Of a stretch of DNA of 64,000 bases, positions 2,305-18,356 are shown one piece after another (position 1 is the first letter of the stretch; every line of letters starts with the position of its first letter). The DNA is from Armatimonadota bacterium (GTDB taxonomy: Bacteria > Armatimonadota > Fimbriimonadia > Fimbriimonadales > Fimbriimonadaceae), in contig WGMG01000007.1 of assembly GCA_016125185.1 (NCBI GenBank), forward strand, positions 124,001 to 188,000, given 5' to 3'. The notes below the pieces were generated by a model that saw only the letters and a list, made by a program, of their open reading frames with translations, did not search any database and was not told the DNA's origin. Both the position numbers and the translations under genes were made by a program.

Positions 2305-3417
2305 ATGAAAGTGGTAACAACATATTCGTCGCGAGCCTTGGCTATTGGGGCCGCAATTGCATTGGGATCGATCTCCTCGGCCAATCAGGAATACGAGGTC
2401 GTCAACATTGGAAACTTGTCCGGCGCCGACTTCGGGCACGCCTCGGCCATCAACAACAGTAACGTGATCGTCGGTTGGTCATCGACTGGCGGAGTCAAAG
2501 ATGGTTTTCAGTGGTCAGAGCAGTACGGCATGATCGACATGAACATGTGGGGTTTCGACTCGTGCGTCATGAACGATATCAACGACAACGGACGAATGGT
2601 CGGAAGCTTCACCAAGGATGGGGTGACGAAGGGCTACATCCATGTGATGCCCTTCCCCGGCTTCAACTACATTTACTACAACGAACCGGTGGGCAACGAC
2701 ACCGACAGCCAAACTTTTGGCCTCAACAACTTCGAGCACATGGTCGGCAACACCGGCATCTCGCCGACCGATCGCCGCGCCGCGGGGTGGACCATCAATT
2801 TCGGAGGCTTCACCATTCCGGGCTATGGGCCGCAAGAGGCTTCGCAACTCTACTGCATCAACGATGCGGACACGATGGGTGGCTATGCCAAAGTGAACGG
2901 CACTCAGCGCGCGACCTTATTTTTCAACGACCAAACGCTGCTTGATCTGCACGGCGCTTTGCCGGGCGCAAACGCCAGCACGGTTTCCAATCTGAACGAC
3001 CAAGGCTGGGCAACCGGAATCTATCACAATGCCAATAACGTGACGTGGTCGTTCCTCTACAACCCGGAACTAGGCGTTCAAACCTTCGAAAACCTCGCCG
3101 GTTGGGACTCCATGAGCTTCCATGAAGTCTCGGGTAACGGAGTGATCGTGGGGACAGGCTTTGGCGGTCGAAACGGAGATCGTGCCACTCGATGGACCCA
3201 GGAAACTGGTCTCCTCGACCTCAATTCCTTGATCTCGGCCAATACCGGCTGGGTGCTCCAAGACGCGACCGACGTCAACGAGAACGGATACATCATCGGC
3301 ACCGGAACCTACAACGGGGTCCAAAGCAACTTCTTGCTGAAGCCCGTCCCCGAACCCGCTGGTATCCTCGCCCTCGGCCTTGGATGCCTCGCCCTCCTTC
3401 GCCGTCGAAAGAGCTGA
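2305..3417 (+). CDS. HAF-repeat PEP-CTERM exoprotein
   Basis: A 370-residue secreted protein. The N-terminal signal peptide is cleaved near residue 26 (SSA-NQE). The body has at least seven HAF-type repeats with the core N-x-G/N-x-hydrophobic-V-G, seen as INNSNVIVGWS, INDNGRMVGSF, LNNFEHMVGN, INDADTMGGYA, LNDQGWATGIY, VSGNGVIVGTG and VNENGYIIGTG. Such repeats form beta-propeller-like folds. The C-terminus has VPEPAG, a hydrophobic stretch and RRRKS, a complete PEP-CTERM signal. A TATAAT-like hexamer at 2285-2290 lies 15 bp upstream of the start and could be part of a promoter. The ligand or role of the repeat domain is unknown. Confidence 0.88.
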   Translation: MKVVTTYSSRALAIGAAIALGSISSANQEYEVVNIGNLSGADFGHASAINNSNVIVGWSSTGGVKDGFQWSEQYGMIDMNMWGFDSCVMNDINDNGRMVGSFTKDGVTKGYIHVMPFPGFNYIYYNEPVGNDTDSQTFGLNNFEHMVGNTGISPTDRRAAGWTINFGGFTIPGYGPQEASQLYCINDADTMGGYAKVNGTQRATLFFNDQTLLDLHGALPGANASTVSNLNDQGWATGIYHNANNVTWSFLYNPELGVQTFENLAGWDSMSFHEVSGNGVIVGTGFGGRNGDRATRWTQETGLLDLNSLISANTGWVLQDATDVNENGYIIGTGTYNGVQSNFLLKPVPEPAGILALGLGCLALLRRRKS

Positions 3418-5758: not shown

Positions 5759-6991
5759 CTAGCCGGAGAAAAGGCACGATCCCTGTGCCAAAACGTGCCG
5801 AATTGGCGAAAACCCAATCCAATAAGCAATCTCTCGATAGTCCTTCAAACCCCAAATCACGAGGTCGCCCTGCTTGTCCGGTTCGAGGCTCCCAACCCGA
5901 TGCCCCCGCTTCAAAGAATAAGCCGCATTGATCGTACACGCCGTCAGCGCTTCCGCCACCGACAGACCCATCTTCGTCACCGCCAAGGACATACAGAACG
6001 GAAGCGATGGAGTCGGCGATGATCCCGGATTGAAGTCACTCGCAAGTACGACTGGCAAGCCAATCTCCTTCATGAACGCAAAGTCTGGGTACTTATCCGC
6101 GCGGATGCCGTAGACCGAACCGGGCAGGAGAACCGGCATCGTCCGGCTCTGGTCCATACAAGCCAATCCCTCCTTCCCCGAATATTCAAGGTGGTCGGCT
6201 GTATCAGCTTGTAGTTGGGTTGCCAGTAAAGCCCCGCCCGAATCCCGCATCTGGTCCACGTGGAGCCGCACCCCAAGCCCCAACGCCTTCGCCGCTTCCG
6301 CATATCGCGTCGCATCCTTCTTATCGAAGTACTTGTCCTCGACAAACATATCGACGTACTCGCAATGCTCTCGAATCTTCGGCAACATATCGTGAATCAC
6401 AAAGTCCAGGTACTCAACGTTGGAACGCGCTTCCGGCGGCACCGCATGAGCCCCCAGGAAGGTGCGAACGACTGTCAAACCACTGGTCGCTAGGTCCTTG
6501 GCAACCCGAAGCATCTTCAGTTCGGTCTCTAAATCGAGCCCATAACCGGACTTGATTTCCGCCGTTGTGGTCCCACATCGAACCATCCACTGCGCATGCT
6601 TCAAAGACTGCTGGTAAAGATCGCTCTCCGAGGCTTCCCGAGTCTTGCGAACCGTCGAGAGAATTCCGCCTCCCCGGGCCGCGATCTCCTGATAAGACAT
6701 TCCCGTCGCGCGCTCTTCAAACTCATCCGCGCGATCCCCAGCAAATACGGCATGCGTGTGCGCATCGACCAGCCCCGGCGTGACCACTCCGCCCGCCGCG
6801 TCATATTCGTCGTCGGCCGTAAAGGAAGGTGCGTCCGACGACAATCCCGCAAAAACAACCTGTCCCGCTACGATATGGACCTCGCCATCGGAAACGAGTC
6901 CGATATCCGACATCTCACCTCCCGCTCGCCCGCGCTGAGAGCCGCGCATCGTCACCAACTGGCCGATATTGCGAACGGCAACGCGGCTCAC
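5759..6991 (-). CDS. hutI: Imidazolonepropionase
   Basis: A 410-residue amidohydrolase that opens the ring of 4-imidazolone-5-propionate to give N-formimino-glutamate, step three of histidine breakdown. The metal motif VTPGLVDAHTHAVFAGDRA is at about residues 70-89. Further family marks are EIKSGYGLDLETELKMLR, the HVDQ motif and LASDFNPGSSPTPSLPFCM, which carries the conserved metal-binding aspartate. The length matches bacterial HutI. The start overlaps the hutG stop by 4 bp, showing translational coupling in a hutH-U-G-I operon. Confidence 0.96.
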   Translation of the reverse strand: MSRVAVRNIGQLVTMRGSQRGRAGGEMSDIGLVSDGEVHIVAGQVVFAGLSSDAPSFTADDEYDAAGGVVTPGLVDAHTHAVFAGDRADEFEERATGMSYQEIAARGGGILSTVRKTREASESDLYQQSLKHAQWMVRCGTTTAEIKSGYGLDLETELKMLRVAKDLATSGLTVVRTFLGAHAVPPEARSNVEYLDFVIHDMLPKIREHCEYVDMFVEDKYFDKKDATRYAEAAKALGLGVRLHVDQMRDSGGALLATQLQADTADHLEYSGKEGLACMDQSRTMPVLLPGSVYGIRADKYPDFAFMKEIGLPVVLASDFNPGSSPTPSLPFCMSLAVTKMGLSVAEALTACTINAAYSLKRGHRVGSLEPDKQGDLVIWGLKDYREIAYWIGFSPIRHVLAQGSCLFSG

Positions 6992-7878
6992 GAGCTAGCC
7001 AGCACTCCCGAAGCAAACTCTAGCAAGCACGCTGCCGCCGCCATACTGGTCGCCGAATTGATGTCGAGTTCAGGATCGAGCTCGACTAGGTCCATCACTA
7101 GCACCTTGGGATTCGCACCCGCAACTTGTGCCGCCTGACGAATATGATGTGGAGTCAGACCGCCGGGACGAGACCCCGGACACCCCGGCGCAAAAGCTCG
7201 GTCCATCACGTCGAGGTCGAGATCGAAATAGACGGCTTGGCATCGGTCGGCCAGTCGCTCCAATTCGGTCTCGAACAGAATTTCAAAATCCCCAGAATGG
7301 CAAAGCTCGGACGACACGGTTCGGATTCCCTGCGAGACCCCAAAACGAGCGTACTCCGGCGAATTCGCAAATGACTGAATCCCAATCTGAACGACATTGC
7401 TCCCTAACAACCCGTCCGACAGCAGTCCCCGAACTGGATTGCCGTTCATCGGCCCGTCGTCCAGGTGCCGCAAATCGAGGTGAGCATCGAGAGTAATCAA
7501 CCCGATCTCCGTCAACGGCTTGCCAAGAGCTTTGGCCAGCGCATTCACGCCCAAGCGGGTGACTCCGTTATCGCCTCCCAACAAGACTGTCGGACCGCTG
7601 GCCATGATGCTTGAAAGCGTCTCGACTTCAACCGTGTCCTCGTGGTCGATCGCCTTCGCATGGCGCACGTCCGAGAAGTTGTAGAACGTCTGTGTGCTGT
7701 ACCGAAACAGCGCTTCGCGGATCGCGGCGGGAGCTAGGTGGCAGGACCCCGGCGTCACTGACCGGTTGATCGGCACCCCGACCACATGAAGCTCGACATG
7801 GGGTTCCAAGCTCTCGCCTTTCAGCCATGCAGATGCTCGATTCCAGCCCGGGTCGTCGTACGCCATTGTCCTGTTCAC
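6988..7878 (-). CDS. hutG: Arginase-family formimidoylglutamase (probable HutG)
   Basis: A 296-residue ureohydrolase-fold protein. The dimanganese motifs are LITLDAHLDLR (DAHxD) and YFDLDLDVMDRAFAPGCPG (DxDxxD). The first motif, GGDHS in arginases, reads VLLGGDNGVT, so the usual histidine ligand is an asparagine. Its place between hutU and hutI argues for hydrolysis of N-formimino-glutamate to glutamate and formamide; agmatinase or another ureohydrolase is possible by sequence alone. It starts with GTG 7878; an in-frame ATG at 7866 is an alternative. The stop overlaps the hutI start by 4 bp, while about 100 bp separate it from hutU. Confidence 0.85.
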   Translation of the reverse strand: MNRTMAYDDPGWNRASAWLKGESLEPHVELHVVGVPINRSVTPGSCHLAPAAIREALFRYSTQTFYNFSDVRHAKAIDHEDTVEVETLSSIMASGPTVLLGGDNGVTRLGVNALAKALGKPLTEIGLITLDAHLDLRHLDDGPMNGNPVRGLLSDGLLGSNVVQIGIQSFANSPEYARFGVSQGIRTVSSELCHSGDFEILFETELERLADRCQAVYFDLDLDVMDRAFAPGCPGSRPGGLTPHHIRQAAQVAGANPKVLVMDLVELDPELDINSATSMAAAACLLEFASGVLASS

Positions 7879-7917
7879 TAGGTTACACGGTGGAGCGCCA
7901 TAAGTTGGTGAAAAGCC

Positions 7918-7950
7918 GAAGCTACCTCTCTGGCGAGAGAGGTCGGTGAG
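7918..7950. repeat. Hairpin in the hutU-hutG gap
   Basis: The 102-bp gap between hutU and hutG contains ACCTCTC-tggc-GAGAGGT, a perfect 7-bp stem with a 4-base loop. It has no run of T after it on the transcribed strand, so it looks more like an mRNA-stabilising or REP-like element than a terminator. Its shape is similar to the CCCTCG-ctgg-CGAGGG hairpin of the 94-bp repeat. Confidence 0.5.
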
Positions 7951-7980
7951 TGCCCACGAACCGGGAGAGTCGCATCAAAG

Positions 7981-9618
7981 CTAGCCGTTCATCGGAATCC
8001 GAACACCCGCCCGCTCAGCAAACTCGATCGCCTCGTCGTATCCCGCATCGACATGCCGAATAACTCCCATCCCCGGGTCCGACGTCAGTACTCGCTCCAA
8101 TCGCTTCGCCGCCGCCTCGGTTCCGTCGGCGACCACCACCATGCCCGCGTGCTGAGAGTAGCCAATCCCGACCCCGCCGCCATTATGGATCGAGACCCAG
8201 GTCGCCCCCGCCGCCGTGTTCACTAAGGCGTTCAACAGCGCCCAGTCGGCGACCGCGTCGCTGGTGTCTCGCATCGATTCCGTCTCGCGATTCGGCGAGG
8301 CGACCGACCCGCAGTCGAGGTGGTCGCGACCAATGACGATCGGTGCCTTGATCTCGCCCGTTCGCACCAACCCGTTGATCGCCAAGCCCATCTTTGCCCG
8401 CTCGCCGTAGCCCAACCAGCAGATACGCGCGGGCAAGCCCTGAAATTGAATTTTCTCCGAGGCGAGCCGGAGCCACCGCTGAAGCGACTCATTTTCGGGA
8501 AACAGCGATGCCGCTAGTTCGTCCGTGCGGCGGATATCCGCCGGATCGCCCGAGAGCGCCGCCCATCGAAACGGCCCTTTCCCTTCGCAGAAAAGGGGGC
8601 GAATGTACTCCGGCACGAATCCCTTGATCTCGAACGCGTCGGTCACTCCCGCCTGCACCGCGTAGGCCCGAATATTGTTGCCGTAGTCAAACGTAACCGC
8701 CCCGCGAGACTTCAGGTCCAGCATCGCCTGAACGTGCAAACCCATCGTCGCAATGCTCCAACGCTGGTACTCGTCAGGATCGCGCTTGCGCAATTCCAGC
8801 GCTTCCGCCAGCGACATGCCGTTCGGCACATAGCCGTTCAGCGGGTCGTGGGCGCTGGTCTGGTCGGTCAAAACGTCGGGCGTGATCCCCCGCCTCAGAA
8901 GCTCGGGCAAAACGTCCGCGCAGTTGCCGACTAACCCAATGCTTACCGCTTCCTTGGCCGCCAGAGCCCGCTCGATTCGGGGCCAAGCCTCGTCCAGAGT
9001 AAAGCTGATCTCATCGATGTAACCCGTATCCAGGCGCTTGCGGATTCGCGATTCGTCCACATCGACGCCCAGGAAAACCGCGCCGTTCATCGTGGCCGCC
9101 AGCGGCTGAGCGCCACCCATCCCGCCAATGCCGCCGCTAACCACCAAGCGGCCCGACAACGACCCACCGAAGTGCCGATCCGCCGCCGCGGCAAAGGTCT
9201 CAAACGTCCCTTGCACGATGCCTTGGCTCCCGATGTAAATCCACGAGCCCGCCGTCATCTGGCCGTACATCATCAGCCCCAGCTTCTCCAGCCGACCGAA
9301 TTCTTCCCAATTCGACCACTTCCCAACCAGGTTCGAATTGGCGATCAGAACGCGGGGCGCGTCCGCCTGCGTTCGGAAAATACCAACCGGTTTGCCCGAC
9401 TGAACCAAGAGCGTTTCATCGTTCTCCAGGGACTGAAGCGACCGAACGATCGCATGAAAAGCGTCCCAGTTCCGCGCCGCCTTTCCAGTTCCGCCGTACA
9501 CGATCAGATGGTCGGGGTCCTCGGCCACCATCGGGTCGAGGTTGTTCATGAGCATGCGCAGGGCGGCCTCCTGTTGCCATCCCTTGCACGTGAGTTGAGA
9601 TCCGGTGGGAGCTTTCAT
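7981..9618 (-). CDS. hutU: Urocanate hydratase
   Basis: A 545-residue NAD-dependent urocanase that turns urocanate into 4-imidazolone-5-propionate, step two of histidine breakdown. Marks include [20 protein letters not shown] near the N-terminus, the glycine-rich [15 protein letters not shown] and [18 protein letters not shown] (NAD-binding region), [20 protein letters not shown], and the C-terminal [20 protein letters not shown]. Length is normal for the family. The start overlaps the hutH stop by 4 bp. Confidence 0.97.
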
Positions 9619-11144
9619 AGAATCGTTTCCAACCCCGAATCGAATGCGCCACGCCCAATCGCGGCGGCAATGGCTTCGAAGTCGGGGGCGAGGTAGCGGT
9701 CCTGTTGGACCCGAGGAATGTCGAGGGCAATGCGCACGGTTTCGTGCGCACGTTCGATCGCCGCGCCAGCTCGCAAGGGACGCCGATACTCAAGCCCTTC
9801 GGCCGCGGTCAAAAGTTCGATGGCGAGGCCACGCTCGACGTTGTCGACGATCCGCCGGAATTTGAGCGCGCTGGTCATGCCCATCGAAACGTGGTCTTCC
9901 TTCCCGCCCGAAGTCGGCACCGAATCGACGCTGGCGGGATGGCTGAGCACCTTGCAGTCATTCAGCAAGGCAGCGACCGTCACGTGTGGCATCATAAAGC
10001 CCGATCCCGTGCCAGGGTGTCCGCTTAGGAATGCCGGAAGCCCCTCGTTTGCATCGGGGTTCACCAGTCGATCCATCCGACGTTCGGAAATCGAGAGCAG
10101 GTCGGTCATGACGATGGCCGCGTAATCCAGCGCATAGGCAAGTGGGGCACCGTGGAAATTTCCACCCGAAATGACATCGCCATTCTCGCGGAATACGAGC
10201 GGGTTGTCCGTCGCCGCGCCGGTCTCCTGCTCCAATGTCTCCCGAACATGCCGAAGGGCAGAACGCACTGCCCCATGAACCTGAGGCATACACCGCAGGC
10301 AGTAGGCGTCTTGCACGCGCGAGTCGCCCACCCGATGCGATTCGCGAATTTCCGAACCTTCCATCAGGCCGAGCAAGTGCTTGGCCGAGGCAATCTGTCC
10401 CTCATGCCGCCGAGCCTCGTGGATGCGCAGATCGAAAGCGGTTGGCGTGCCCATCAGGGCTTCCAAGGTCATCGCGCCGATGATATCCGCGGCATGGACG
10501 CACCGCAACGCGCGAATCAGGCCTAGGCATCCAACGCCTCCAATTGCTTGGGTTCCGTTCAGCAAGGCCAGACCCTCTTTCGGTTCCAATGCCAATGGAG
10601 TGAGTCCCTGCTTTTCCAGTGCCTTGCGAGCGGGAACTCTCGTCGAGCCGGACCAGCATTCACCTTCGCCGATCATCGCCAGCGCAAGGTGTGCCAGCGG
10701 CGCAAGGTCGCCAGACGCGCCCACCGAACCCTGGGACGGCACGACCGGAGTGATGCGCTTGTTGAGCATTTCGACGAGGAATTCAATCACCTCGACTCGC
10801 GCTCCGCTAAAGCCCTGAGCTAGGACATTGAGACGAAGGAGCATCATCGCTCGGGTTTCGGGAATGCTGAGAGGTTCACCCACTCCGACCGCATGACTTC
10901 GAACCAGGTTAAGTTGAAGTTGGCGCAGTTCGTCGTCGGGAATATGGACGTCGGCCAGGCGGCCAAAGCCGGTGTTGATGCCGTACGTGACGACATGGTT
11001 GTGGACAATGTGGTCGACAACTTGGCGCGACTCCGCCACGATTCGACGAGTGGCGTCCGAGAGTTGGACCTTGGTTGCGCCAAACGCCACGTCGGCAATT
11101 TGGGCAAGAGTGAGCGGCTTAGGCTCGACGGTGAGCACGCCCAT
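9615..11144 (-). CDS. hutH: Histidine ammonia-lyase
   Basis: A 509-residue enzyme that removes ammonia from histidine to give urocanate, the entry step of the hut pathway. The self-forming MIO cofactor motif is [17 protein letters not shown], with Ala-Ser-Gly at residues 143-145. Other family marks are TYGINTGFG (residues 53-61), [12 protein letters not shown], and the glutamine-rich [13 protein letters not shown] segment. It is the first hut gene, and its start lies only 3 bp after the stop of a cysteine-rich lipoprotein-like gene, so hut transcription may begin upstream of 11744. No HutP or HutC regulator is visible nearby. Confidence 0.97.
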
Positions 11145-11147
11145 AGT

Positions 11148-11744
11148 TTACTTGGATGGCGGTGAAGAAGAACGGCTTGATGTAACCGTTGGCACCATCA
11201 AATCGCCAACGAAGACCGTCGTCTTCGGCGAAGGTTTTGAACTCGGAATGATCGCCTCTTTCACTTCTTCGATGAACTCCTCGACCTTCTCCTCAATCGC
11301 CTCGAAGGTTGTCGGTTTGGGATCCGAAGCCCAATGAGTGTCGGCCACGTCCGGGAATTCGTCGAGGTTGCTCGCCGTAGCCGGGCTCGAAGCTTGAGCT
11401 TGAACCGGCGTTTGCGGAGTCGTTGCCACCGCAACCGGTGTCGGACTGGAGGCGCATCCGGCCGCGGTCGCCGCGATAGCTCCCGCGACGGCCAAACGAG
11501 GAATCCACCCGTCCTTGGTTAGAACGCCGAATTTCTCGTTGACGGTCAGGCGAACGCAAACCTTTCCTGTCGATGCCGCCAACGCCTCAGCCTCTTCGGC
11601 AGGCATCTCGGCGATGTTATGGACGTGGCAACCACACCCGGCACAAAAACGCTGACGTTCGTCGCCTTCCATCGCGTCCCAATTCTCGGGGCACCGGAAG
11701 GAAACGTCAATTCTTTGTAGTTTTTTGAATTTGGAGCCCTTCAT
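11148..11744 (-). CDS. Cysteine-rich lipoprotein-like protein, tandem paralogue 1
   Basis: A 198-residue protein of unknown function, third in transcription order of three tandem paralogues. The N-terminal domain (residues 1-80) has C18, C34, C37, C39, H40, H42 and C63 in the pattern CPENWDAMEGDE...RFCAGCGCHVHN...VC. The same layout (C-x-E-x-W...RFC-x2-C...VC) is found in a short domain at the N-terminus of many Bacteroidota and other bacterial proteins; I infer a bound metal, probably zinc. Next comes a hydrophobic segment of about 14 residues ending in AAGC (C97), like a lipoprotein signal, then a Pro/Ser/Thr-rich tail with an acidic helix. I start at ATG 11744, aligned with the paralogues; ATG 11768 is longer. 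It overlaps the preceding paralogue by 38 bp. Confidence 0.8.
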   Translation of the reverse strand: MKGSKFKKLQRIDVSFRCPENWDAMEGDERQRFCAGCGCHVHNIAEMPAEEAEALAASTGKVCVRLTVNEKFGVLTKDGWIPRLAVAGAIAATAAGCASSPTPVAVATTPQTPVQAQASSPATASNLDEFPDVADTHWASDPKPTTFEAIEEKVEEFIEEVKEAIIPSSKPSPKTTVFVGDLMVPTVTSSRSSSPPSK

Positions 11745-12246
11745 GGTCGGGTGCCTTGGACCAGTCAAAAGAAGTGTCGTTCGAATAGCTGTCGATGTTC
11801 GCCGGGGTTCCGGTCACAACCCGAACGCTAGGGTCCGTCTTGGGTGAACTCGAAGGTTGATGAGTGATCGTAGCCAGCTCTTGGTTCGGGGCACTGTTCA
11901 CGGGAGCCGACGTCGTAGAACCGATGATGGTTTCCGATTGTTGCTGGGCACATCCGGCGGAAGTGACAGCAAGCATTCCGGCTAAAGCTAAGCGCGGGAT
12001 CCAGCCGTCCCGCGTCCGAATCCCCAATCTTTCATGTAGAGTCAGACGGATGCAGACTTTCTCGTCTTGGCTAAGCTTTGCAAGTTCTTCAGCATCCTCC
12101 GCTGGCATTTCCGCGATGTTATGGACATGGCAACCGCATCCGGCGCAGAAGCGCTGGCGTTCATCGCCTTCCATCGAATCCCAACTCTCGGGGCACTGGA
12201 AGGAGACATTAATTCTTCGCAGATTCTGGAACGTACTTGGCTTCAT
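11707..12246 (-). CDS. Cysteine-rich lipoprotein-like protein, tandem paralogue 2
   Basis: A 179-residue paralogue of its two neighbours. The N-terminal 85 residues keep C18, C34, C37, C39, H40, H42 and C65 (CPESWDSMEGDE, RFCAGCGCHVHN, VCIRL) and the motif DGWIPR just before a hydrophobic segment that ends TSAGC (C99). The last 80 residues are low-complexity (Ser, Thr, Pro, Gln, Asn) and do not align well with the paralogues. I use ATG 12246 because it aligns all three N-termini; ATG 12267 lies in frame upstream. It overlaps the paralogue on each side by exactly 38 bp. Confidence 0.8.
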   Translation of the reverse strand: MKPSTFQNLRRINVSFQCPESWDSMEGDERQRFCAGCGCHVHNIAEMPAEDAEELAKLSQDEKVCIRLTLHERLGIRTRDGWIPRLALAGMLAVTSAGCAQQQSETIIGSTTSAPVNSAPNQELATITHQPSSSPKTDPSVRVVTGTPANIDSYSNDTSFDWSKAPDHEGLQIQKTTKN

Positions 12247-12769
12247 GAATAGGTTCACCTCCAGCACCTGATTTGGTGCTTACCAACGACACCCAACCGG
12301 AAATGGCATAGACTTCAGGTTCCTTCTTGGAACCTGGCAGAAACTTTTCCTTCACAGACTCAGCCACTTCCGACGCTTTGTCCTTCATATCGTCGAAGGC
12401 TTCGCCAGGGGTCTTTCCTCCGAAGGCAGGCGGTGGAGCGCTTGCAGATGCGGCTGTTGTTGGACTCGTCGCGCAACCAGCAGCAGTGGCCGCGATGATG
12501 CCGGCCGCCGCCAAACGTGGAACCCAGCCGTCCTTCGTCAAGATTCCAAGCTTCTTACTGAAAGTAAGTCGGATACAGACCCTTTCGGTCTCATTCCGAA
12601 TGGCCAGAGCTTCTGCCTCCTCGGCACTGAGTTCAGCAATATTGTGAACTTGACATCCACAACCGGCGCAATGCCGTAGTTGCTCGTCGCCTTCCATCGC
12701 GTCCCAATCTTCGGGGCATTTGAACCCCACATCGATCATCGGCAGTCGTTCGAATTTCGAAAAATCCAT
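12209..12769 (-). CDS. Cysteine-rich lipoprotein-like protein, tandem paralogue 3
   Basis: A 186-residue paralogue and the first of the three in transcription order. It keeps C18, C34, C37, C39, H42 and C65, but H40 is replaced by Q and F33 by H (LRHCAGCGCQVHN), so the metal site may rest on the four or five cysteines. The hydrophobic segment ends AATAAGC (C99). The tail has a helix-forming stretch (DDMKDKASEVAESVKEKF) and a hydrophobic end YAISGWVSLV that resembles VFVGDLMVPTV in paralogue 1. It begins 16 bp after the stop of the small membrane protein gene at 12786. Confidence 0.8.
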   Translation of the reverse strand: MDFSKFERLPMIDVGFKCPEDWDAMEGDEQLRHCAGCGCQVHNIAELSAEEAEALAIRNETERVCIRLTFSKKLGILTKDGWVPRLAAAGIIAATAAGCATSPTTAASASAPPPAFGGKTPGEAFDDMKDKASEVAESVKEKFLPGSKKEPEVYAISGWVSLVSTKSGAGGEPIHEAKYVPESAKN

Positions 12770-12785: not shown

Positions 12786-13292
12786 TCATTGTAAGGGAAG
12801 ATCGGCGATATTCGACTGATTGTCGGCTTCCATGTCGAGTTTGGTTGAATAAGGAACGCCAGTATTCCGAGCCTTCCAGTTAAGAAAGTCCATCACTCCA
12901 GCGATAACTAGAGCCGTAAAGGCTCCGGCTATGTCCAGAATCCGAATCAATCTTTCGGCCGACGCGGGACCTGGCTCGTCATCGAGCAAACTCCCCAGCG
13001 AAAGACAGCAGACAAAGCCGAAGAGGCAGAGAACGGCGGCGAGGAACTTTTGTTGGGGAGCGGTGATGGCGCAAGCAAGAAGAGCTACAAAGGGCACCAT
13101 CACTGCACTGATGCAATATTCGAACATCGGATGGTCGTAGAACGCGCTCTTGGACAAGTCCGGGACAGGGTGAAGAGGCTGCGTCACCAAATGGATGAGG
13201 AGAGGAATGCCCAAGCTCGAAACAATAAGGATCGCCGGTGCCAAGAGGAACCAGATTCCCCAAGAAACTTGAAATGCCCGTAGTCGATGCAC
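12786..13292 (-). CDS. Four-helix membrane protein, unknown function
   Basis: A 168-residue protein with about four membrane segments (WGIWFLLAPAILIVSSLGIP; a segment around YCISAVMVPFVALLACAI; AAVLCLFGFVCCLSLGSLL; and one around IAGAFTALVIAGVMDFL) and a polar C-terminal tail. I recognise no family. GTG 13292 is my start, because the longer frame to 13409 runs into the hupE-like gene and its first 35 residues are basic and non-membrane. It sits between the HupE-like gene (59 bp upstream) and the cysteine-rich trio (16 bp downstream), so it may be part of the same transcript. Confidence 0.6.
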   Translation of the reverse strand: MHRLRAFQVSWGIWFLLAPAILIVSSLGIPLLIHLVTQPLHPVPDLSKSAFYDHPMFEYCISAVMVPFVALLACAITAPQQKFLAAVLCLFGFVCCLSLGSLLDDEPGPASAERLIRILDIAGAFTALVIAGVMDFLNWKARNTGVPYSTKLDMEADNQSNIADLPLQ

Positions 13293-13351
13293 GTGATGAT
13301 TCCTATTAGCCCTAACACTCCCCGAGCCGCTTAAGTGCCTAAGACAGAATT

Positions 13352-14368
13352 TTAGCCGCCGCGAATGATTCTTTCGCCGAACCAGAACAGGCCAACGAGG
13401 CTGATACAAACCGCAGTCGCGACCGTTGCCGGTTGGTAGAGCTTCGGCCTCCGGTCCTGGAACCAGAGCAAGATCGGAATACCGACCAGGATCAGCGATA
13501 TCTGAACGAGCTCGACGCCGATGTTAAACGACGCGAGCGAGACGGCCGCTTGTCCGGGCGGCAGACCGGCCTCCGTCAACGCTCCCGCGAACCCAAAGCC
13601 ATGAATCAGGCCGAAGCTGAAGGCGATCAAAACCGTTCGCCAAACCTTGTCGTCGGGCTTAAAGAATTTCTCGGCCGCCACCGCGACAATGGAAAGCGCA
13701 ATCAGTGGCTCTACAATCCGCGAAGGCAACGTGAAGATGTTGAGCGCGCAAAGTGACAGCGTGATGCTATGGGCGACGGTGAAGCCGGTCGCGACTTTGA
13801 CTAGCTCCCGAATTCGCGGGCGGGCGAGCATCAGTCCGAAGATGAAAAGCAGATGGTCCGGTCCCGACAGAATGTGCTCGATTCCCATCAGGAGGAACGT
13901 CTTCATCGTCGCCAAAACGCTCACGTGCTGTGGCGTGGATGATTTCGCCGCGCCATACCGCCAAGACGGAAACTCCGAAGTCAGAACCGCCTGACCCGCG
14001 ACGTCGCCGTCCTTCATCACCGTCACAATCGTCTTCGTGGTCGGATCGTTGGCAAAGAGCCTTTGCGAGACGTCCAGCGACTCAACCGGCTCATCGATTC
14101 GAGCCTGGAGTGTTACATTGTCGGTCGGCTTATCGACCATCAGGTTCGGCTTCTCGCAGGTCCAGTTGTGGCCGTTGACCTGAAGATGAATCTCTGAACC
14201 CAGCGCCTCGGGCGTCGTTCCCGTCTTCTTGATGTTCGTCAGCGTGGTCTGGATGGCGACGGTCGCGCCTTTGGCGTCCAAGATGAACTTCAGACCGGAA
14301 ATGCTGGTGTCATGTGCCCACGCCAGACAACTAGCGATCAATAGCACAAAGGTGGCGAACCAGCGCAT
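13352..14368 (-). CDS. HupE/UreJ-family membrane protein
   Basis: A 338-residue protein. It has an 18-residue signal peptide (cleavage after AWA), an extracytoplasmic beta-rich domain of about 120 residues, then a membrane domain with six or seven helices holding the HupE/UreJ_2 marks: GIEHILSGPDHLLFIFGL, ATGFTVAHSITLSL, SFGLIHGFGFAGAL and FNIGVELVQ. HupE/UreJ proteins are linked to nickel or other metal movement for hydrogenase and urease; this larger two-domain form is common in genomes without either, so the substrate is open. The downstream genes on the same strand include the cysteine-rich metal-site trio, which fits a metal-related theme but does not prove one. Confidence 0.85.
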   Translation of the reverse strand: MRWFATFVLLIASCLAWAHDTSISGLKFILDAKGATVAIQTTLTNIKKTGTTPEALGSEIHLQVNGHNWTCEKPNLMVDKPTDNVTLQARIDEPVESLDVSQRLFANDPTTKTIVTVMKDGDVAGQAVLTSEFPSWRYGAAKSSTPQHVSVLATMKTFLLMGIEHILSGPDHLLFIFGLMLARPRIRELVKVATGFTVAHSITLSLCALNIFTLPSRIVEPLIALSIVAVAAEKFFKPDDKVWRTVLIAFSFGLIHGFGFAGALTEAGLPPGQAAVSLASFNIGVELVQISLILVGIPILLWFQDRRPKLYQPATVATAVCISLVGLFWFGERIIRGG

Positions 14369-16466: not shown

Positions 16467-18356
16467 ATGAAGCCGACCCTCATTCTCGATTTCGATAGCA
16501 CCATCGTGAGCGTGGAATCGCTTGATCTGCTCGCGGAAATCTCGCTCGCCAAGCACCCAGAGCGGGCCGATCGGCAAGCAAAGATCGAAGAGCTGACCAA
16601 GCTGGGGATGGAAGGAAAGCTCGATTTTCGCGAATCACTCACCAAGCGGATCGAGTTGCTCGACGCCAACCGAGGGCACATCGAAACTCTGATCAAGCGT
16701 CTTCAGAAGTCCATTTCGCCTTCGTTCCAGTCGCACAAAAAGCAGATTCAAGGGTCGGCAGATCGCATCTACGTGGTGACTGGCGGCTTTCGAGAGTTCG
16801 TCGAGCCGATCTTGGAAAAGCTGAAGATTCCCGCCGACCATCTCTTCGCCAACACGTTTAAGTTCAATACTAAAGGCAAGATCATCGGCTTCGATGAGGA
16901 TAATCCGCTGAGCCGCGCGGGTGGCAAGGTCGAGGTCGCACGCCAACTGGCCGACAAAAAGCCGCTCATCGTCGTCGGTGACGGCTACACCGACTACCAA
17001 ATCAAGGAGGCCGGCGTCGCCGATAAGTTCTATTGTTACGCCGAAATCGTGGCTCGCCCCGCAGTCAAAGCCAAGGCCAACCGCGTCGTCTATGGCATCG
17101 ACCAGGTTTTGGCCGAAAGCGACCTTCCAACCCGCTATTCGTTCCCACGAAGCAAGATCAAGGTCCTGCTCCTGGACAACATCGACTCCGACGCCGCCGA
17201 CAAGCTGGCGGCCGAGGGCTACCGGGTCGAGCAGGTGGGAGCCAAGCTCAGCGAAGACGATCTGGTCAAAGCGATCAAAAACGTCTCGATCATCGGCGTT
17301 CGCACCCGCACAAAGCTCACACCCCGTGTGCTGGCCGCCGCCGAAAAGCTGATGGCGATCGGCGTATTTAGCGTCGGAACCGACCATGTCGATGTCCGCG
17401 GAGCCGCCGAGAAGGGAATCGCGGTCTTCAATGCACCGTTCAGCAACACACGAAGCGTCGTCGAACTCGCCCTTGGCGAAGCGATGGTTCTGATGCGCCG
17501 AGTGGTCGAGCATTCCACGGCCCTGCACCAGGGCAAGTGGACCAAGACTGCTGATCGCTCGTTCGAGATTCGCGGCAAAAAGCTCGGCATCATCGGCTAC
17601 GGCAATATCGGCTCCCAACTATCGGTTTTGGCTGAAAGCGTCGGCATCGAGGTCCTGTACTACGACATCGCGGAGAAGCTCTCGCACGGTAACGCCAAGC
17701 GGGCTCTGTCTCTGCAAGACCTCCTCAAGCAGTCGGACATCATCAGCGTGCACTTCGATGGCCGTGCTTCGAACAAAAACCTCATCGGCGAGAAGGAGTT
17801 CGATATGATGAAGCCGGGCGTGATCTTCCTCAATCTCAGTCGAGGAACGGTCGTCAACTACGAGGCCCTGGCCGAGGCCGTGCGGAGCGGTAAAGTCGGC
17901 GGAGCCGGCATCGACGTCTTCCCCAACGAGCCCAAGAGTAATGCGGAACCGTTTGAGTCGGTTTTGCAGGGCCTGCCCAACGTCATCCTTACCCCTCACA
18001 TCGCGGGTAGCACCATCGAGGCCCAGCGCAACATCGCCAACTATGTTTCGGAGCGACTGCTGAAGTACCTGGCCCACGGCGAAACCCTCGGCTCAGTCTC
18101 GCTCCCCGACGTCTATCTGCCGCCGCTTCAGAAAGGCATGCGCATTTTGCACATCCATTCGAACGTCCCCGGCATCGTGGCGAATGTCAGCTCGATCTTC
18201 GCCAAGCACGGCGTGAACATCGTCGGTCAAAGCCTGAAGACTCGCGATTCGGTGGGTTACCTCGTCACAGAAATTGCCGATAAAGTGCCGGATGACATGC
18301 TCATGGAGATCAGAGAGGTCTCGGAAACGATTAAACTAAGGGTTGTCTACCCATGA
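16467..18356 (+). CDS. Fused phosphoserine phosphatase / 3-phosphoglycerate dehydrogenase
   Basis: A 629-residue protein that joins two enzymes of serine synthesis. Residues 1 to about 225 are a HAD phosphoserine phosphatase: DFDST at 8-12, VTGGF (motif II) and VVGDGYTDYQIK (motif IV). Residues about 230-545 are phosphoglycerate dehydrogenase: GVRTRTKLT, the NAD motif LGIIGYGNIGSQL near 375, LNLSRGTVVN, the catalytic glutamate in NEPKS and histidine in LTPHIAGS. Residues about 555-629 form an ACT domain (HSNVPGIVANVSSIFAKHGV), which in SerA senses serine. The fusion covers steps one and three of the pathway; step two is the next gene, whose ATG overlaps this stop. The frame is continuous with no sign of a recent joint. 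Confidence 0.93.
   Translation: MKPTLILDFDSTIVSVESLDLLAEISLAKHPERADRQAKIEELTKLGMEGKLDFRESLTKRIELLDANRGHIETLIKRLQKSISPSFQSHKKQIQGSADRIYVVTGGFREFVEPILEKLKIPADHLFANTFKFNTKGKIIGFDEDNPLSRAGGKVEVARQLADKKPLIVVGDGYTDYQIKEAGVADKFYCYAEIVARPAVKAKANRVVYGIDQVLAESDLPTRYSFPRSKIKVLLLDNIDSDAADKLAAEGYRVEQVGAKLSEDDLVKAIKNVSIIGVRTRTKLTPRVLAAAEKLMAIGVFSVGTDHVDVRGAAEKGIAVFNAPFSNTRSVVELALGEAMVLMRRVVEHSTALHQGKWTKTADRSFEIRGKKLGIIGYGNIGSQLSVLAESVGIEVLYYDIAEKLSHGNAKRALSLQDLLKQSDIISVHFDGRASNKNLIGEKEFDMMKPGVIFLNLSRGTVVNYEALAEAVRSGKVGGAGIDVFPNEPKSNAEPFESVLQGLPNVILTPHIAGSTIEAQRNIANYVSERLLKYLAHGETLGSVSLPDVYLPPLQKGMRILHIHSNVPGIVANVSSIFAKHGVNIVGQSLKTRDSVGYLVTEIADKVPDDMLMEIREVSETIKLRVVYP

Follow-up and report, generated by a model that had tools for sequence, protein, structure and literature searches.

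Three overlapping genes of an Armatimonadota genome as an old tandem triplication in a widespread, unmodelled family of probable bacterial envelope proteins

Three adjacent genes on the reverse strand of an Armatimonadota contig encode cysteine-rich proteins and overlap at both of their junctions by the same length, which raises the question of whether the overlap was copied together with the genes, and of what kind of protein was multiplied here. The window, that is the whole stretch of DNA that was analysed, is 64,000 nucleotides long. An earlier note on it had described three adjacent paralogues with junctions of exactly 38 bp, and the open reading frames, their coordinates and an alignment of the N-termini confirmed this description:

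12209..12769, reverse strand: gene A, first in transcription, 186 aa; open reading frame with ATG and an AGGAGGG ribosome-binding site; family member
11707..12246, reverse strand: gene B, 179 aa; open reading frame with ATG and the ribosome-binding site GGAGGTGA; family member
11148..11744, reverse strand: gene C, last in transcription, 198 aa, with its stop 3 nt before hutH; open reading frame; family member
12209..12246, reverse strand: A/B overlap, 38 bp, with the A stop TAA inside Ile-Asn codons of B (sequence and frame analysis)
11707..11744, reverse strand: B/C overlap, 38 bp, with the B stop TGA inside Ile-Asp codons of C (sequence and frame analysis)

The figure of 38 bp holds for both junctions with ATG starts. 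Alternative starts are possible at GTG 12267 for gene B and TTG 11768 for gene C; the ATG codons were preferred because they are common to the relatives and because, in A and B, a good ribosome-binding site precedes them. The first 100 residues of the three proteins align with few gaps and with every cysteine in common, the N-terminal identity of A and B to C being 70-73%, and at the DNA level a 143-nt direct repeat occurs in three copies across the trio, spaced 502 and 523 bp apart. The host genome has no family copies besides these three.

Several other genes of the window surround the trio. Directly downstream of C, histidine degradation genes (hutH, hutU, an arginase-type gene and an amidohydrolase gene) occupy 5759-11144 on the reverse strand; since hutH starts 3 nt past the C stop, one transcript may cover both them and the trio. 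The hut genes do not lie near relatives of the trio. Just upstream of A, a 207-aa membrane-like reading frame (12786-13409, reverse strand) had no Pfam match. Further away, a single forward-strand reading frame (16467-18353) joins a SerB-like HAD phosphatase to a SerA-like D-3-phosphoglycerate dehydrogenase with an ACT domain and is followed at 18353 by an aminotransferase-like reading frame, a serine pathway fusion, and the protein encoded at 2305-3417 on the forward strand ends in a PEP-CTERM-like sorting signal (VPEPAGILALGLGCLALLRRRKS).

The proposal of a tandem duplication was borne out by phylogeny. A tree built from 39 members places A, B and C in a single clade (support 93/98) set apart from the nearest same-genus relatives, with A and B as sisters (90/77); separate tandem pairs have arisen independently in three other genomes of this tree (G002, G067 and, probably, G007). 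Over the first 100 alignment columns pS within the trio is 0.81-0.91, which is saturated, and dN is 0.19-0.29. Such values indicate an old duplication and a constrained N-terminal domain, and on this comparison of pS with dN the similarity within the trio is not due to chance; they also agree with the earlier view that all three copies kept their cysteines under purifying selection. The tails behave differently from one another. Those of A and C are homologous, with an alignment score of 76 against a shuffled mean of 31.8 that none of 2000 shuffles reached, so the copied unit was evidently the whole gene, whereas A and B outside the overlap score 25 (p 0.63), and in tail alignments with shuffling the B tail had no alignable similarity to the A tail outside the part encoded by the overlap. 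The C-terminal divergence that had been suggested for the trio thus holds for the unalignable B tail and not for A and C, whose tails can still be recognized as homologous. Judged by tree and substitution pattern, one family member was triplicated in tandem, long ago and specifically in this lineage.

Equal overlaps had been taken as a sign that a unit which already overlapped was duplicated, a reading that the start sequences and their surroundings do not bear out. Downstream of the B and C ATG codons, one frame meets its first stop at 4 bp (ATGA) and the other frame at 38 bp, so that an overlap of 4 or 38 bp is the only option for an upstream gene. Each upstream gene would then run on, both times in the 38-bp frame, until a stop inside the start of its downstream paralogue ends it, and identical 38-bp overlaps would result. 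Replacement of a lost stop by one within the neighbouring gene is among the general mechanisms of overlap that have been described (PMC3887535). Nor do the equal lengths look like a sign of inheritance, since B and C are less alike in the first 38 bp (24/38 identities) than in the following 112 (93/112), and since none of 16 other tandem junctions in the family, whose lengths depend on the start codons chosen for those genes, shows a 38-bp overlap: 15 are gaps (7 to 794 bp) and one is an overlap of 8 bp. Much of what the earlier note had named as counting against its reading was in fact observed: the DNA upstream of the starts shows no similarity between the junctions, and related genomes mostly carry single unlinked genes. 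On the sequence, the equal overlaps need no more than a coincidence of reading frame, and an inherited overlap is not necessary.

The alternative, that unequal crossing-over within the homologous N-terminal region multiplied a two-gene array with a 38-bp overlap, would make A/B and B/C one and the same junction, and it draws on the sister position of A and B, on the equal endpoints of the two overlaps and on the P-x-H-E and K-N common to the C-termini of A and B, although these residues lie in or next to the part encoded by the overlap. Against it, in-register similarity upstream of the B and C ATG codons is at chance level (5/20, 8/30, 15/60 and 21/100 matches), and it is C, not B, that the A tail resembles. 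As synonymous sites are saturated, a trace of an inherited overlap could have been lost, and we regard this alternative as rather unlikely, though not negligible, beside the coincidence of reading frame.

The N-terminal domain is the part that connects the trio to other bacteria:

12518..12769, reverse strand: four-cysteine N-terminal domain of A, with the extra Cys of CGC (alignments A1, A4 and A5)
11995..12246, reverse strand: four-cysteine N-terminal domain of B, with the extra Cys of CGC (alignments)
11499..11744, reverse strand: four-cysteine N-terminal domain of C (C18, C34, C37 and C63; extra C39); AlphaFold2 model, no PDB fold match

Among 84 aligned members from several phyla, C18, W22, M25, G27, C34, C37, V41 and C63 are invariant, and C18, W22, C34, C37 and C63 are present in all three copies of the trio. 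The layout first given for the metal site (C-x-E-x-W, RFC-x2-C, VC) was slightly off and reads correctly C-x3-W, R[FH]C-x2-C-x-C, VC, with all of its cysteines kept. A fifth cysteine (in DCP), common elsewhere in the family, is missing from the trio, whose subclade has CxxCGC instead. AlphaFold2 predicted the domain of C with a mean pLDDT of 86.6 over residues 1-82 and a pTM of 0.71; a PDB fold search with the predicted domain gave no match, and a PDB sequence search gave nothing convincing, the best E values (0.011 and 0.021) belonging to HMG and histone demethylase chains. Conservation of the cysteines together with the confident fold prediction suggests that they hold a metal, probably zinc. 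A weak, CxxC-centred likeness was seen to the GATA-like zinc domain of KDM6 (PF21326; UTY and JMJD3 structures; PDB E 0.021). Its best Pfam E value, 0.0089, came from another family member, with none in the trio, and falls short of any cut-off; the KDM6 domain belongs to eukaryotic demethylases and differs in giving no fold match, and it serves as no more than a lead.

Of 291 genomes of the phylum, 47 have members according to a profile search. A narrower profile, scanned against a genome collection, gave 303 relatives, of which the best 80 come from Acidobacteriota, Myxococcota, Planctomycetota, Verrucomicrobiota, Armatimonadota, Cyanobacteriota (Melainabacteria, Vampirovibrio and Obscuribacter) and one Rhodothermaceae bacterium, in whose phylum 33 of 247 genomes hold members. 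The family therefore spans at least seven phyla, in line with the earlier suggestion that the domain stands at the N-terminus of many bacterial proteins with no named role. The Obscuribacter genome G297, which contains locus L118, has nine family matches, some of them lacking conserved cysteines. Searches with the trio and its relatives found no family model in Pfam, NCBIfam or PADLOC, the trio matched none of the anti-phage defence proteins of PADLOC, and a literature search in broad terms, with incomplete coverage, found no description of the domain. By these searches, the trio belongs to a bacterial family, probably of envelope proteins, that is widespread but has no model.

In nearly all family members the domain is followed by a hydrophobic segment, which in the trio ends as follows:

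12473..12514, reverse strand: hydrophobic segment of A, ending in lipobox-like AAGC (lipobox scan)
11950..11991, reverse strand: hydrophobic segment of B, ending in SAGC, a weak lipobox that fails the pattern at -3
11454..11495, reverse strand: hydrophobic segment of C, ending in lipobox-like AAGC (lipobox scan)

In the wider family this segment resembles a membrane anchor with Arg or Lys before it. Against the pattern used, [LVI][ASTVI][GAS]C, the trio lipoboxes are imperfect, with Ala at position -3 in A and C and Ser in B; the clade mates of the trio have strong ones (LSGC, VAGC and IAGC). Of 36 sequences from the bacterial family of the trio, 23 have a lipobox-like Cys at the end of the segment or within it, compared with 4 of 87 cross-phylum members, and the host genome encodes the signal peptidase LspA (PF01252; G000:C6, E 1.3e-33). 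Bacterial lipoproteins with a signal peptide II likewise combine a hydrophobic stretch with a lipobox Cys, but there a short basic n-region comes first, whereas the trio has a folded domain of about 80 residues, an unusual element ahead of a lipoprotein signal. Because the trio segment begins at residue 84-86, it does not count as an N-terminal signal peptide. The lack of such a signal and the basic residues ahead of the segment, with orientation judged by a hydropathy scan and by eye, point to a cytosolic head, and the tail of the trio clade is, by its sequence, probably lipidated at the Cys.

The tails of the trio are about 80-100 residues long, and each carries, once or twice and in loose form, a hydrophobic-Gly motif that is repeated in the family:

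12284..12310, reverse strand: tail motif of A, YAISGWVSL, a loose form of the family motif (tail motif search)
11914..11931, reverse strand: tail motif 1 of B, TIIGST (tail motif search)
11803..11823, reverse strand: tail motif 2 of B, RVVTGTP (tail motif search)
11193..11216, reverse strand: tail motif of C, VFVGDLMV/P, with at least 90% Gly in the G180 column (motif search and alignment)

These are weak variants without Met-Gly. The motif [LIVT]MG[DKNEA][IVMP] occurs 80 times in 7213 tail residues but not once in the neighbouring proteins (34,761 residues) or in the members' N-terminal parts. Cross-phylum tails, typically in the form P-x-x-[LIVT]-M-G-[DKNEA]-[IVMP]-A-x-P, contain 157 Met-Gly against a shuffled mean of 29, and 77 of 85 carry it; Bacteroidota tails are enriched too (24 vs 5.3). 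Within the trio's own bacterial family the Met is often Thr, Val or Ile, and the looser motif is found 83 times against 15.7. An interpretation of the Met-Gly boxes as internal start codons was set aside owing to these replacements. The tails are Pro-rich and of low predicted confidence, except for one helix in C. Bacteroidota members have TonB_C, CarboxypepD_reg or Por_Secre_tail at the position of the tail, and as these modules act outside the cytosol, they support a topology with the tail out. By eye, the tail of a Minicystis member (L189, reverse strand) resembles an OmpA-type peptidoglycan-binding domain.

The anatomy of head, segment and tail is well supported by the alignments and motif counts, and from it we infer the metal, the location of the head and the topology, the lipidation and a partner. 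The metal-binding four-cysteine head would fold and remain in the cytosol, the hydrophobic segment would serve as export signal and anchor, and the tail would be exported and offer short strand-like motifs to a putative envelope partner, so that the whole protein would act as a tether or adaptor with two sides; where it is a lipoprotein, cleavage by LspA would part head from tail. For the reading that joins these features with an old triplication and with overlaps due to coincidence of frame in one explanation, we estimate a probability of about 0.5. No gene neighbour or fused domain common to the whole family was found: a neighbour scan gave scattered families, the commonest being VWA_2 (12 of 122), NAD synthase (8) and CN hydrolase (7). 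A conserved genomic partner was rejected because even the commonest neighbour families occur in a minority of loci. A functional tie to genes of the window was rejected as well, for neither the hut genes nor any other neighbour of the trio was found within up to about 10 kb on each side of the relatives compared.

Two other functions were weighed against a tether or adaptor. The tail motif could be a TonB-box-like strand in a transducer or box carrier serving TonB-dependent transport, as suggested by the Pro-rich tails, by a weak TonB_2 match in one member and by the Bacteroidota members with TonB_C or CarboxypepD_reg. Among these, Flavobacteria-type TonB_C (PF03544) proteins such as L199, L207 and L212 share the Cys head, a segment ending in TTLFSC and Gly motifs in the tail, and CarboxypepD_reg-like (PF13715) proteins such as L202 and L213 share the head and membrane segment, often with a terminal [ML]G-E/D-V/I. 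However, the latter have a folded beta domain where the trio has a disordered tail, and Pfam searches of the trio found no TonB C-terminal domain, PF13715 or PF13620; moreover, the same-genus genomes G001, G006, G013, G014, G015 and G018 have the family with neither TonB_C nor Plug, which led us to reject a TonB-box role and to consider TonB-dependent transport in general very improbable. A cytosolic cysteine domain that senses an oxidant or metal and alters export, release or cleavage of the tail would suit the four invariant cysteines adjoining a membrane segment and the exchange of the fifth Cys of DCP for CxxCGC in the trio subclade. The commonest neighbour families, though, include no recurring regulator, sigma factor or sensor partner, and such a sensor is unlikely, if less so than a role with TonB. 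A tether or adaptor thus remains the preferred reading.

Extended to the whole family, this reading would describe a pan-bacterial envelope system with a cytosolic four-cysteine head, connected across the inner membrane to an exported tail whose Met-Gly box docks on a putative receptor, the anchor having become a lipoprotein signal in the trio clade, where maturation would cut head from tail. We offer such a system, and its being so far undescribed, tentatively, at odds somewhat short of even. For the family, the domain is strongly conserved over at least seven phyla, yet it is without a Pfam or NCBIfam model, a solved structure or a fold match. For overlapping genes, the trio is a caution that paralogues with a common start sequence can come to overlap by equal lengths without having inherited the overlap. 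Finally, the tail motif, with 80 copies against none in the control proteins, is a sharply defined and testable candidate recognition signal.
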